From Chitinophagaceae bacterium (GTDB lineage: Bacteria; Bacteroidota; Bacteroidia; Chitinophagales; Chitinophagaceae), in assembly GCA_004322425.1 (NCBI GenBank), contig SCVJ01000029.1, forward strand, positions 1 to 35,132: a stretch of 35,132 nt of DNA, written 5' to 3'. Below are positions 5,217-32,102 of the stretch, piece by piece. Position 1 is the stretch's first letter. The number at the start of each line of letters is the position of its first letter. The notes under the pieces are model-generated. The model was not told where the DNA came from and did no database searches. It worked only from the letters and a program-made list of their open reading frames with translations. The position numbers were made by a program, and so were the translations under genes.

Positions 5217-5259
5217 CTACGGTTTACTGCCAAAATTTCATTAAAGTTCCCGATGGCAT

Positions 5260-5267
5260 TATCCTTG
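5260..5267 (+). promoter_or_regulatory. Predicted -7 element of dnaK
   Basis: TATCCTTG differs from TAnnTTTG at one position and is 32 bases before the dnaK ATG. It lies within a 7-base direct repeat, GCATTAT, at 5257-5263 and 5267-5273, spaced about one helical turn. No CIRCE-type inverted repeat is visible. Confidence 0.4.
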
Positions 5268-5299
5268 CATTATGATACTGAAATAAAAAATCATAAAAA

Positions 5300-7207
5300 A
5301 TGGGAAAAATTATAGGAATAGATTTAGGAACCACCAATAGCTGTGTTTCCGTAATGGAAGGAGGAGAGCCGGTTGTTATTGCTAATGATGAAGGACGCCG
5401 TACAACTCCGTCAATTGTTGCTTTTCTTAAAAATGGTGAAAGAAAAGTAGGAGATCCTGCAAAAAGACAGTCAATAACAAACCCTCAAAACACTATCATG
5501 AGTGTTAAACGGTTTATGGGACGTCGGCATGATGAGGTAACAGAGGAAATTAGCCATTGGAGTTATAAAACTACAAAGGGTGACAATAATACCGTTCGTA
5601 TTGACATAGATGGCAGACATTATACACCTCAAGAAATTAGTGCGATGATTCTTCAAAAAATGAAGAAAACAGCTGAAGACTATTTGGGGCATGAAGTGAA
5701 CGAAGCCGTTATCACAGTTCCTGCCTATTTTAATGATGCACAGCGTCAAGCCACTAAAGAAGCGGGCGAAATTGCCGGGCTAAATGTTCGCAGAATTGTA
5801 AACGAACCAACTGCAGCTGCTTTAGCATATGGATTAGATAAAGGGAAACATGATCAAACTATAGCAGTATTTGATTTGGGTGGTGGTACGTTTGATATCT
5901 CAATCTTAGAATTAGGTGATGGTGTTTTTGAAGTAAAAAGTACAAATGGAGATACACATCTTGGTGGAGATGATTTTGATAAAGTAGTGATGGATTGGTT
6001 AGCGCTAGAATTCAAAAATGAAGAAGGAATAGATCTTCGTAAAGATCCAATGGCATTACAACGTTTAAAAGAAGCGTCTGAAAAAGCCAAAGTTGAACTC
6101 AGTTCTTCTTCTGAAACAGAAATCAATCTGCCATATATTACTGCTATTGATGGTGTTCCAAAACACTTAGTTAAGAAGTTGACAAAAGCCAAATTTGAAC
6201 AATTGTCCGATATTTTATTTGCACGCTGTTTAAAGCCTTGTGAACAAGCTTTAAAAGACGCAGGAATGAGTATATCTCAAATTGACGAAGTAATTCTAGT
6301 AGGCGGATCAACAAGAATTCCAAAAGTTCAAGAAATTGTAGAGAAATTTTTTGGTAAAAAACCTAATCGCAGTGTAAATCCTGATGAGGTTGTAGCTATT
6401 GGAGCAGCCATTCAAGGGGCAGTTTTAACAGGAGAAGTAAAGGATGTTCTATTGTTAGATGTTACACCGCTTTCTTTAGGAATTGAAACCTTAGGTGGCG
6501 TAATGACACATCTTATTCCTAGCAATACCACAATTCCTACTAAAAAATCTGAAGTTTTTTCTACAGCAGCGGATAATCAACCAGGGGTTCAAATCCATGT
6601 AATACAAGGAGAACGTGGAATGGCAAAGGATAATAAGAGTTTAGGAGTTTTTAATTTAGATGGAATTCCACCAGCTCCACGAGGTGTTCCGCAAATTGAA
6701 GTAATTTTTGATATCGATGCAAATGGTATTTTACATGTTACTGCAAAAGATAAAGGAACCGGTAAAGAACAAAAAATTCGTATTGAAGCTGGAAGTGGAT
6801 TGACGAAAGAAGAAATTGAGAAAATGAAGAATGATGCCAAAGTAAATGAAGAAGGTGATAAACTTGAAAAAGAAAAAGTGGAAAAATTTAACGCAGCTGA
6901 TAGTTTAATATTTCAAACAGAAAAACAGTTAAAGGAATTTGGAGAAAAAATACCTGCTGAAAAGAAAGTTGTTATTGAAACCGCCGTTGCAAAATTGAAA
7001 GAAGCGCATAAGTCTCAAGATCTTGCAGCAATCGACGCTGCTATGACTGAATTAAATACAGCGTGGACAGCCGCAAGCCAGGATATGTACAATGCTACTA
7101 ATCAAGCTGGACAAGCACAAGCAGATCCAACTAACGGTCAAGAACAAAAAACGGAATCAACTAGTACAGATAATGTACAAGATGTTCCCTTTGAAGAAGT
7201 AAAATAA
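5300..7207 (+). CDS. dnaK: Molecular chaperone DnaK (Hsp70)
   Basis: ATP-dependent Hsp70 that binds unfolded segments of client proteins in the cytoplasm with DnaJ and GrpE. The 635 residues are a full-length DnaK: ATPase phosphate loops IDLGTTNS (7-14) and FDLGGGTFD (191-199), the adenosine-binding LVGGSTRIP segment, the linker [13 protein letters not shown] (about 385-400), the substrate-binding beta domain, the helical lid, a Gln-rich low-complexity stretch and the terminal DVPFEEVK. dnaJ and grpE are not in the window, so dnaK is unlinked to its partners here. It is followed by a strong terminator and is probably monocistronic. Confidence 0.98.
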
Positions 7208-26083: not shown

Positions 26084-27637
26084 ATGAAGATTCCTACTTC
26101 CGAACAATTAAAGGCTTGGGATCAGTTCACTATTCAACAAGAACCTATTGCTGCCATTGACTTAATGGAGAGAGCTGCGGAAAAATGTTGCACTTGGATA
26201 ACAGAAAACATGGGAGCAAAACAAGAGTTTAGCATTTTTTGTGGCAAAGGGAATAATGGAGGTGATGGTTTAGCTATAGCAAGATTGTTGCTAAAAAAAG
26301 CGAAAGTAGTTGCGGTGTACATACTCGAATCTGATTCAAATGGAACAGAAGAGTTTCAGAAAAATTTTCTCCGACTGAAAGAAATAGATTCTTCCAATAT
26401 ATTTTTTATAAGTCAAAAAAATGATTTCCCAATTTTACCAAATGATATAATAATTATAGATACTTTATTAGGTTCTGGTTTGAGTAGGCCAATAGATGGA
26501 TTGGCAAAAGATGTAATTGAAAATATTAACAGTTCGAACTGTACAATTATTTCTATTGATATTCCAAGTGGTTTGGCAGTTGATCAAAACTCTAATGGGA
26601 ATACAACTATTAATGCAACTGATACGTTAAGTTTTCAATGTTATAAACCTGCTTTTTTAATTGCTGATAACAAAGCTGCAATAGGAAATGTTCATATTCT
26701 TGAAATTGGTTTAGATCCCACGTTTCTTGATTCAATTGAAACAGAAAGTGAATTGGTAGATGAAACTCTTATAAATGCAATTTACAAACCGAGAAATCGT
26801 TTTGCACATAAAGGAAATTTTGGACACTCACTTCTTATAGCCGGAAGTTATGGAAAAATGGGAGCTGCTTTACTCGCAGCAAAAGCTTGTTTGCGAAGCG
26901 GAGTGGGGCTCCTCTCCTGCTTTATTCCAAAATCAGGTTACGAAATAATGCAATCACAACTACCTGAAGCAATGGTGCAAACTGATATCAATTCTTCTCT
27001 TCTTACTAAAATAGATTTAAACAACTCCAATTTTTCAGCAATTGGAATTGGTCCAGGAATTGGAACAGCTTCAGAAACAAAGCAAGCTCTAAAAAAGTTT
27101 TTGCAAATAAATTCTAACCCTTTGATTGTAGATGCAGATGCTTTAAATATTATTGCAGAAGAAAAAAAATTACTCGAAGTCCTATCCTCCTTTTCAATTA
27201 TTACTCCCCATCAAAAAGAATTTGAAAGATTATTTGGAATCTGTACAAATGATTACGAACGCATCAAGGTTGCATCACAAAAAGCAAAAGAGTTTAATCT
27301 GATTGTCGTTTTAAAAGGACATCATACTTTAATAGCAACACCCGATGGTAAAAAATTCTTTAATACTACTGGCAATGCTGGAATGGCTACGGCTGGCAGT
27401 GGCGATGTGTTAACTGGAATAATTACAGGATTATTAGCTCAAGAATACAACTCGCAACAAGCTGCACTATTGGGTGTTTACCTTCATGGACTTGCCGGAG
27501 ATATTGCTGCTGAAAAATTTACTCAAGAAGCACTGTTGGCAACTGATATTGTCAATAGTATTTCTTTGGCATTTAAAGAAGTTTCAAAAAAAGCGTTATC
27601 CAATCACCTCAACACTTCTCTCAACAAAAGCAGTTAA
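26084..27637 (+). CDS. nnr: Bifunctional NAD(P)H-hydrate epimerase / ADP-dependent NAD(P)H-hydrate dehydratase
   Basis: Repairs hydrated NADH and NADPH. The 517 residues contain an N-terminal YjeF_N epimerase domain (about 1-215) with GKGNNGGDG (54-62) and LGSGLSRP, fused to a C-terminal ribokinase-like dehydratase domain (about 225-505). The latter shows HKGNFGHSLLIAGS, GKMGAALLAAKACLRSGVGL, IGPGIG, the VDADALN segment and the ATAGSGDVLTG nucleotide-binding motif. The fused arrangement is common in bacteria. The start is the ATG after a 93-base gap from serA. Its 3' end overlaps the convergent htpG gene by 42 bases. Confidence 0.95.
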   Translation: MKIPTSEQLKAWDQFTIQQEPIAAIDLMERAAEKCCTWITENMGAKQEFSIFCGKGNNGGDGLAIARLLLKKAKVVAVYILESDSNGTEEFQKNFLRLKEIDSSNIFFISQKNDFPILPNDIIIIDTLLGSGLSRPIDGLAKDVIENINSSNCTIISIDIPSGLAVDQNSNGNTTINATDTLSFQCYKPAFLIADNKAAIGNVHILEIGLDPTFLDSIETESELVDETLINAIYKPRNRFAHKGNFGHSLLIAGSYGKMGAALLAAKACLRSGVGLLSCFIPKSGYEIMQSQLPEAMVQTDINSSLLTKIDLNNSNFSAIGIGPGIGTASETKQALKKFLQINSNPLIVDADALNIIAEEKKLLEVLSSFSIITPHQKEFERLFGICTNDYERIKVASQKAKEFNLIVVLKGHHTLIATPDGKKFFNTTGNAGMATAGSGDVLTGIITGLLAQEYNSQQAALLGVYLHGLAGDIAAEKFTQEALLATDIVNSISLAFKEVSKKALSNHLNTSLNKSS

Positions 27638-29488
27638 GTCTGCACCTTTGAGCATTCCTTGTGCTAATAACGCCAAATCAAAAGCTTGTTTAGCGATGAT
27701 TGTTTGTTGTGCTTCGTCAACAGTTAATATTTTAGCTATTAGTTTATGATTAGCATTCACAGCAACTTTATAACTATCGGGCATAGTACCGTAAAAATTC
27801 ATGGGTCCACCCCCTCCCATTTTTGACATGTCTTTCATTCTTCTCATCCATTCTTCCATCGTAATAGAAACAGGAAGTGATTCGGAAGTCAAACTTTCCA
27901 CTTCAACTTTCATATTGGAATTGTTAATAGCTTTTTCAAAAACAGCTTTTACTTTACTTATTTCATCTTCAGAAAGTTGATGAGAAAGACTTTCATCTTT
28001 TTCAATTAATTTTTCAAGGACATCTGCATCCACACGTTTTAATGCTGTTTTTTCCAATTTCATTTCCAACTGCTGAATGAAATGAGTATCAATTGGAGAG
28101 TTCATTAACAGCACATCATAATTTTTCTTTTGCGCTGCTTTTACATAACTGTCATGAAATTCAGTATTTGCAGTGTACAACCAAATTAATTGACCATTTT
28201 TATCGGTTTGAAAATCTTTTACTTTTAATTTATACTCTTCCGCTGTAAAATGCTCTTCAGCAGTATTGGTCAGCAATAAAAAATCTTTGGCTTTTTCATA
28301 AAATTTCTCATCGGAGATGGCTCCATATTTTACAAACAAACCAATATCGTTCCACTTCGATTCATAAACCTTTCTATCTTTTTTAAATAATTCACTCAAC
28401 TTATCGGCCACTTTTTTACTGATATAACTATTGATTTTTTTTACATTACTATCGGCTTGTAAAAAAGATCTACTTACGTTCAATGGAATATCTGGCGAAT
28501 CAATTACACCATGAAGTAGCAGTAAAAATTCAGGAACGATATCTTTCACTTCATCTGTGATAAATACTTGACGACTGAAAAGTTTTATTTTATTTTTTTG
28601 AATTTCAAAGTCATTTTTCAACTTTGGAAAATATAACACGCCTGTTAAATTAAACGGATAATCTACATTTAGATGAATCCAAAACAAGGGCTCTTCTGTA
28701 AAGGGATACAGTTCTTTATAAAATGATAAATAATCCTCATCTTTTAAATCGGCTGGAGTTTTCGTCCAAATTGGGTTTGTATTGTTGATGATATTATCAA
28801 CATCAACTGATTTGTATTTTGGTTTACCGTCTTTATCTTCTCCATCGGGTACGGATTGTTTTTTAGTTCCAAACTGTACAGGAACAGGCAAAAATTTTGC
28901 ATATTTATCAAGAATACTTTGCAATTTATGTTCTTGCAAAAACTCGATCGACTCTTCATTAACATACAGAATAACATCCGTACCTCTTTCTGTACGTTTG
29001 CCTTTGCTTATCTCAAAAGAAGTGCTACCATCACAAATCCAACGAGCGGCTTCAGCTCCATCCACATATGAAAGAGTTTGAATTTCCACTTTATCGGCTA
29101 CCATAAAAGAGGAATAAAAGCCTAATCCAAACCGGCCAATAATTTCATTGGCATCTTTCGCTTCCTTGAATTTTTCCATAAACTCAGTAGCACCAGAAAA
29201 AGCAACTTGATTTATGTATTTTTTAATTTCATCAGCTGTCATTCCAATTCCGTTATCCGAAATAGTAATTGTTTTTGCCTTTGAATTCACAGCAACTTTT
29301 ACCAATGGCTCGCCAATTTCTCCGCTAAAATGTCCCAATGAACTGATACGTTTCATTTTTTGCGAAGCATCAACAGCATTGCTAACTAATTCTCTTAAAA
29401 AAATTTCGTTATCGGAGTATAAGAACTTCTTAATGATGGGGAAAATATTTTCTGTATTAATCGAAATGGTGCCTTTTTCTTTTTGCAT
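27596..29488 (-). CDS. htpG: Molecular chaperone HtpG (Hsp90)
   Basis: ATP-dependent Hsp90 dimer that remodels client proteins in the cytoplasm. The 630 residues are full length. N-terminal GHKL ATPase features are FLRELVSNAVDASQK (Glu and Asn for ATP hydrolysis and Mg), ISDNGIGM and GRFGLGFYSSFMVADKVEI. The middle domain has LFSRQVFITDE and the SRSFLQAD catalytic-loop segment. The C-terminal dimerisation domain is normal, without an MEEVD tail. Upstream lies a promoter whose start region carries a strong palindrome, so specific repression is likely. No heat-shock partner gene adjoins it. Confidence 0.96.
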   Translation of the reverse strand: MQKEKGTISINTENIFPIIKKFLYSDNEIFLRELVSNAVDASQKMKRISSLGHFSGEIGEPLVKVAVNSKAKTITISDNGIGMTADEIKKYINQVAFSGATEFMEKFKEAKDANEIIGRFGLGFYSSFMVADKVEIQTLSYVDGAEAARWICDGSTSFEISKGKRTERGTDVILYVNEESIEFLQEHKLQSILDKYAKFLPVPVQFGTKKQSVPDGEDKDGKPKYKSVDVDNIINNTNPIWTKTPADLKDEDYLSFYKELYPFTEEPLFWIHLNVDYPFNLTGVLYFPKLKNDFEIQKNKIKLFSRQVFITDEVKDIVPEFLLLLHGVIDSPDIPLNVSRSFLQADSNVKKINSYISKKVADKLSELFKKDRKVYESKWNDIGLFVKYGAISDEKFYEKAKDFLLLTNTAEEHFTAEEYKLKVKDFQTDKNGQLIWLYTANTEFHDSYVKAAQKKNYDVLLMNSPIDTHFIQQLEMKLEKTALKRVDADVLEKLIEKDESLSHQLSEDEISKVKAVFEKAINNSNMKVEVESLTSESLPVSITMEEWMRRMKDMSKMGGGGPMNFYGTMPDSYKVAVNANHKLIAKILTVDEAQQTIIAKQAFDLALLAQGMLKGADLTAFVERSVEVIG

Positions 29489-29520
29489 TGTTTAATTTTT
29501 TCAATTTTATGATAATACCC

Positions 29521-29541
29521 TTGTAACAAGACTTGTTCCAA
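29521..29541. promoter_or_regulatory. Candidate operator: 21-base palindrome at the htpG start site
   Basis: Arms TTGtAACAAG (29521-29530) and CTTGTTcCAA (29532-29541) mirror each other around a central A with nine of ten positions paired. It overlaps the downstream end of the predicted htpG -7 element and covers the likely +1. Shape and position fit a repressor site; the regulator is unknown. The pattern was not seen upstream of dnaK. Confidence 0.6.
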
Positions 29542-29569
29542 AGAAAATAAATTGTCAGATTGACAGCAA
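29539..29569 (-). promoter_or_regulatory. Predicted htpG promoter (-33/-7)
   Basis: On the minus strand TTTCTTTG (29539-29546) matches TAnnTTTG at all but one position. A TTG (29567-29569) lies 20 bases upstream, the preferred spacing. The -7 element is 50 bases from the htpG ATG. Confidence 0.5.
29553..29565. promoter_or_regulatory. Second small dyad inside the htpG promoter spacer
   Basis: TGTCA (29553-29557) and TGACA (29561-29565) form perfect five-base arms around GAT, lying between the -33 and -7 elements. It could be a regulator half-site pair; arms are short, so chance is possible. Confidence 0.35.
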
Positions 29570-29631: not shown

Positions 29632-29639
29632 TATCTTTG
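29632..29639 (+). promoter_or_regulatory. Predicted -7 element of the pyrophosphatase gene
   Basis: TATCTTTG is an exact TAnnTTTG match ending 36 bases before the ATG at 29676. No -33 TTG at ideal spacing. Confidence 0.5.
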
Positions 29640-32072: not shown

Positions 32073-32102
32073 AAAAAAACCTCACTGTTGTGAGGTTTTT
32101 TT
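32073..32102. terminator. Bidirectional intrinsic terminator between hppA and the PorP/SprF gene
   Basis: Perfect 13-base-pair stem: seven A plus CCTCAC (32073-32085) with GTGAGG plus seven T (32090-32102), loop TGTT. A run on one side and T run on the other serve both convergent genes. Confidence 0.92.

Follow-up and report, generated by a model that had tools for sequence, protein, structure and literature searches.

A conserved symmetric site beside the sigma-54 promoter of htpG probably helps to switch on heat-shock chaperone genes in a Chitinophagaceae bacterium and many of its relatives

Introduction

In Flavobacterium psychrophilum, 5' ends of the sigma-54 type were mapped before htpG, dnaK, groES, grpE-dnaJ, lon and clpB (PMC9723704), and a genome-wide prediction found chaperones, Hsp90 among them, to be enriched for sigma-54 in this phylum (PMC12316311). 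Promoters of this kind require an AAA+ activator (PMC9723704). The main text of the F. psychrophilum study left the activator open among three, and its table of mapped 5' ends also includes a sigma-54-type regulator, listed with LptE, whose promoter is of another type (PMC9723704). The promoter class is therefore not new: one species has mapped 5' ends, the phylum has genome-wide predictions, and the activator was left open. In a term look-up limited to main texts, an adjacent symmetric operator is not mentioned in PMC9723704 and PMC12316311, nor, under sigma-54 and heat-shock terms, in PMC12596196 and PMC3162934; being limited to main texts, this absence is weak. Literature searches, which covered few subscription papers, likewise returned no report of a promoter-proximal operator, again a weak absence.

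Inverted repeats that control chaperone genes are familiar from the CIRCE/HrcA system. Among sigma-54 systems, the NorR sites of Proteobacteria, GT-(N7)-AC, are 11-base inverted repeats upstream of the promoter, where three tandem sites are read by a protein with a GAF sensor domain (PMC1274295, PMC4987338). PspF is a sigma-54 activator without a regulatory domain, consisting of an AAA+ domain followed by a helix-turn-helix (HTH), and is controlled by PspA (PMC4987338).

Here, we describe the region upstream of htpG in a Chitinophagaceae bacterium, within a stretch of 35,132 nucleotides (the window; assembly GCA_004322425.1, contig SCVJ01000029.1). An earlier reading of this DNA from its letters, referred to below as the original prediction, placed a sigma-A promoter there, overlapped by a large palindrome and with a smaller dyad in its spacer.

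Results

The gap between htpG and the divergent hppA (29676 onward, plus strand) contains both dyads (Table 1). It also contains GG-N10-GT at 29539-29526, which agrees with the sigma-54 promoter form TGGCAC-N5-TTGC, in which a GG and a GC-type element lie ten bases apart; the -12 element has GT where the consensus has GC, and a T is found at that place in 20 of 95 upstreams. The pattern TGG-A-A-C/T-N5-TTG, directed towards htpG, is kept at 26 of 29 loci in one set of relatives and at 74 of 80 in the other (simple pattern), with TGG, A and TTG being the conserved parts. This resembles the SM4 (sigma-54) promoters of F. psychrophilum, which likewise have -24/-12 elements before htpG, dnaK and grpE-dnaJ and were derived from 5'-end mapping (PMC9723704). 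Since TGGAACAAGTCTTGT lies at 29540-29526, the transcription start is predicted near 29514, with a predicted leader of 26 bases up to the ATG at 29488, instead of at about 29530 as originally proposed. The -7 element on which that sigma-A promoter depended does not hold: the 8-mer at its position is TTTCTTTG, not TAnnTTTG, and TAnnTTTG is found there in only 2 of 95 box-bearing upstreams (this locus included in the 95), so the element is neither in the sequence itself nor conserved. By its letters and those of its relatives, the conserved core promoter of htpG is of the sigma-54 type, not sigma-A.

Table 1. Positions of the genes, promoters and symmetric sites discussed in the text
Feature	Position	Strand	Remarks
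htpG (Hsp90)	27596..29488	-	PF00183
Sigma-54 core promoter of htpG, TGGAACAAGTCTTGT	29526..29540	-	-24 GG, -12 GT, ten bases between; conserved in relatives
Predicted htpG transcription start	29514	-	Counted from the -24/-12 elements
Conserved operator TGTCAATCTGACA (core GNCA-N3-TGNC)	29553..29565	-	12 nt upstream of TGG
21-base dyad	29521..29541	.	Real, not conserved, judged accidental
dnaK (Hsp70)	5300..7207	+	PF00012
Sigma-54 core promoter of dnaK, TGGCATTATCCTTGC	5254..5268	+	Same layout as at htpG
dnaK operator variant, TGCCAAAATTTCA	5228..5240	+	13 nt upstream of TGG
lptE-linked sigma-54 activator	L235:787-2034	-	Own genome, outside the window

The smaller of the two dyads, TGTCA-N3-TGACA, is present as originally described. 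As the single copy of TGNCANNNTGNCA in the window compares with 0.70 expected, the case for this site rests on its conservation, not on its rarity. For the comparison, htpG upstreams were taken from 29 of the best 30 loci in a search of 59 genomes (52 of which have htpG) and from the best 80 of 524 relatives, which included Chitinophagaceae, Pedobacter, Mucilaginibacter, Algoriphagus, Niabella, Taibaiella, Terrimonas and others. These 109 upstreams comprised 103 distinct ones after removal of 6 duplicates, with L017, whose gene start is missing, left out. The core GNCANNNTGNC was present within 300 nt in 98 of the 103, without any promoter being required, compared with a mean of 4.5 and a largest value of 9 in 50 Markov shuffles. 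In 95 of the 103, TGG followed 23-25 nt after the first base of the core, and the T, T and G of the -12 element, which were not part of the query, were found in 95, 93 and 95 of those 95 upstreams. An alignment of 94 promoter-box sequences keeps the six core letters in 93-94 of them, while the columns before the core are almost without information; as box and gap were picked by score in this alignment, the core-to-TGG test on the 103 upstreams is the fairer one. The second and tenth letters of the 11-base core vary among relatives, and a stricter 13-base form stands at the right distance at 61 of the 80 loci. The spacing between the operator and the -24 element is near-fixed at 12-13 nt.

Among the eight upstreams failing the strict test, two (L012 and L014) keep the core exactly, with CGG replacing TGG 24 nt on. 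Inspection by eye shows L008, L019, L163 and L165 to have, at the usual distance, a core with one letter changed, and L021 to have a core about 45 nt before TGG, while L027 has no core upstream of htpG.

To the breadth of this layout, a phylum-wide sample adds 198 genomes, 50 of which carry htpG at E <= 1e-100. Three of these (G000, G009 and G052) were already in the earlier set, 46 were newly read genomes of the same class, and the fiftieth (G064) lies outside the class. The strict layout was found in 43 of the 46, covering 10 families, and the remaining three carry CGG in place of TGG at an unchanged distance, giving 46 of 46 under a relaxation chosen after seeing them; one of the 46 duplicates one of the 103 upstreams (L310 = L221). 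Upstream of htpG in G064 there was neither a sigma-54 box nor the operator-promoter layout, although a single match to the core lies about 30 nt ahead of the start codon. Searched against the 59 genomes, the strict composite pattern gave 26 matches in 25 genomes compared with 1 for the reversed pattern, and by their coordinates 24 of the 26 lie before htpG, 1 before dnaK and 1 was assigned to no gene.

A conserved dyad upstream of a -24 element has the sequence form of a sigma-54 activator (enhancer) site, and the core in this genome, GTCAATCTGAC, fits the NorR consensus GT-(N7)-AC. We put the probability that htpG has a sigma-54 promoter together with a genuine conserved operator at about 0.88. 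The symmetric site beside the core promoter is likely to be a point of direct control; of the two symmetric sites for which such control had been suggested, this is the one for which the suggestion stands.

The larger dyad, TTGTAACAAG-A-CTTGTTCCAA, is real, with 9 of 10 arm positions complementary. At its position, however, 93 relatives pair at a mean of 3.35 of 10 and a maximum of 6, against 3.32 (sd 0.06) when the second arms were shuffled among the sequences, so it was rejected as an operator; footprinting in relatives was the check that the original prediction itself had named. Dyads with 10-base arms, a loop of 0-1 and at most one mismatch occur 3 times in the whole window, where 40 Markov sequences gave an expectation of 5.25. 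For the 187-base intergenic stretch by itself the expectation is 0.028, which makes one unusual there, for a stretch chosen post hoc. We judge the palindrome to be an accident of the sigma-54 promoter, arising by chance pairing.

The original prediction also stated that dnaK lacks the site. This is correct for the 21-base palindrome but not for the layout, since TGCCAAAATTTCA, 13 nt and TGGCATTATCCTTGC follow one another at 5228-5268. The grpE gene of the same genome has GACAATTTGTC, 13 nt and TGGCAGAATTATTGAG, the latter 24 nt on from GACAATTTGTC, and upstream of its groES the operator-promoter layout is absent. Among the listed loci of relatives, the composite was found at 23 of 30 for dnaK, 27 of 29 for grpE and 4 of 28 for groES (one of the four, L099, is doubtful), loci cut by contig ends (2 of 30 for groES and 1 of 30 for grpE) being left out. 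At grpE the strict core is present in 26 of 29 compared with 2.2 in shuffles. The dnaK copies have a degraded second half-site, with the strict core in 2 of 30 compared with 1.6 in shuffles, while the form GNCANNNTNNC is found in 30 of 30 compared with 6.5. The low counts of a strict sigma-54 pattern (2 of 28 for groES and 2 of 29 for grpE) should not be read as absence of the promoter, as the letters show TGGCAA or TGGCAG and weaker -12 variants.

With a looser pattern, 19 genomes gave 40 matches compared with 3 for the reversed pattern. Of the 40, 22 lie before htpG (7), dnaK (9), grpE (4) or groES (2), 1 duplicates, on a different contig, a dnaK site, and 17 were assigned to no gene; in the genome studied here the only two matches are those of dnaK and htpG. 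On these counts, the operator is shared in variant form by htpG, dnaK, grpE and a few groES genes. As a separate observation made by eye, several TGACA/TGTCA half-sites lie farther from the start upstream of groES in L101 (reverse strand) and some others, and these may represent the same operator in a looser array.

CIRCE is also an inverted repeat at chaperone genes, but TTAGCACTC-N9-GAGTGCTAA finds no match in the window even when up to 3 mismatches are allowed, and no CIRCE-like match was found before 30 listed groES loci, two of them cut by contig ends. CIRCE was rejected on these results, in agreement with the original remark that the symmetric sites do not resemble CIRCE.

What a sigma-54 promoter requires is encoded in the genome, namely RpoN (rpoN is present in 59 of 59 genomes, this one included) and an AAA+ activator. 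Four places in the genome match the sigma-54 activation domain; two of them are full activators, the third is a Clp-type ATPase and the fourth matches at 20.4 bits. The first full activator, with 415 residues and no sensor domain, has a Sigma54_activat domain from residue 12 and HTH_8 at 375-411, which is the PspF-like form, and lies between lptE and a gene that we take to be miaB-like. The second is an NtrC-type response regulator adjoining a histidine kinase (L236). In a domain search, neither had a GAF domain. The lptE-linked activator was found in 58 of 59 genomes at E <= 1e-90 (this one included, G001 having no match) and in 46 of 46 genomes of the class at E <= 1e-60, with best matches of 1.8e-131 or better in each. 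The protein was read at 55 of 59 loci (L302, L303, L356 and L361 were left out), and an LptE-like gene follows it in 47 of the 55. The HTH sequence LGISERTLYRK is identical in 55 of 55 loci, compared with a mean identity of 40% to the protein of this genome in the linker before it. A side observation is that the usual GAFTGA loop is replaced by GSFTGA in 45 of the 55 loci; a search for GAFTGA caught 10 of 59.

Discussion

Promoter, operator, their near-fixed spacing and conservation, and the presence of rpoN and an activator gene are read directly from the DNA. In the mechanism we propose, htpG would be transcribed from the minus-strand sigma-54 (RpoN) promoter at 29540-29526, with the dimer-type 11-base operator GNCA-N3-TGNC twelve nt upstream of it. 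The sigma-54 polymerase would sit closed at this promoter, to be opened by an AAA+ activator that uses ATP. During folding or envelope stress, the operator would most likely bring this activator to the promoters of chaperone genes, and we regard it as probable that the operator is an activator site.

The lptE-linked PspF-like protein is the most likely candidate for the activator, and its C-terminal HTH could dock on the operator. That HTH is invariant and the protein near-universal, which suits a near-invariant operator; this is an agreement of patterns based on co-occurrence only, and HTH recognition helices are similar across many activators. We see about an even chance that this protein binds the operator. 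Being without a sensor, it is perhaps held by a partner protein, as PspF is by PspA, although this is a guess.

Several observations count against this explanation. Sigma-54 enhancers are usually farther from the -24 element and less rigidly spaced than the 12-13 nt seen here. The groES genes mostly lack the layout, and groES of this genome lacks it although that of F. psychrophilum has a sigma-54 promoter; the degraded half-site at dnaK, the 17 of 40 looser matches without a gene and the coreless L027 add to this. It seems possible, though we hold it only tentatively, that htpG, dnaK, grpE and, rarely, groES are run throughout the class by one receiver-less lptE-linked activator reading a single 11-base operator 12-13 nt from the -24 element.

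A different dimeric regulator, either a repressor or a co-activator, could instead occupy the operator and gate the sigma-54 promoter, with the AAA+ activator acting elsewhere or without a site. A protein bound at the fixed distance of 12-13 nt upstream of -24 could obstruct the polymerase or make contact with it, which would suit such a regulator, as would the lack at htpG of the several distal sites that are common for sigma-54 activators. However, the size and symmetry of the operator fit activator sites such as GT-(N7)-AC of NorR (PMC1274295), and overall we consider this unlikely. A dedicated heat-shock repressor had been favoured in the original prediction; direct control at the small dyad is indeed likely, but because sigma-54 promoters need an AAA+ activator, a repressor site is the less likely reading of it. 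It is more improbable that the operator is an extended part of the promoter, read by the sigma-54 polymerase itself with no regulator involved: the near-fixed spacing to -24 would be expected of such an extension, but the strong 11-base dyad symmetry suggests binding by a dimer. Slightly less probable again is a reading of the operator by the NtrC-type response regulator, which has its own histidine kinase. The genome encodes just two full activators and this is one of them, but its recognition helix differs, and near-universality was shown for the lptE-linked protein instead. A repressor operator formed by the 21-base palindrome over a sigma-A start retains next to no probability, its nearly complete pairing within the core promoter being outweighed by shuffled-level pairing in relatives, the chance frequency of such dyads in the window and the rarity of the -7 element.

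The preferred reading, in which the lptE-linked protein activates from the small operator, can be set against the described activators. NorR reads three tandem sites and carries a GAF sensor domain (PMC1274295, PMC4987338), whereas here a single site lies near -24 and no sensor domain is present in the candidate activator. PspF is likewise without a regulatory domain (PMC4987338); unlike it, the candidate has chaperones as its presumed targets and lptE as its gene neighbour. If the more tentative class-wide proposal is correct, the activator would touch the polymerase at close range and not via looping, the supply of chaperones would be coupled to envelope assembly, and the heat-shock switch would operate without a sigma-32-type factor and without HrcA at these promoters. 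With a conserved 11-base operator, few target genes and one near-universal candidate, the questions of activator and signal become directly testable.

Two further features of the window concern the neighbour of htpG. Upstream of hppA, TATCTTTG at 29632-29639 (plus strand) matches the TAnnTTTG -7 element of the phylum, and therefore hppA is likely to depend on the main sigma factor, with the divergent htpG on sigma-54. At the other end of hppA, between it and the convergent porP/sprF genes, the perfect hairpin AAAACCTCACTGTTGTGAGGTTTT at 32074-32101 is terminator-like.
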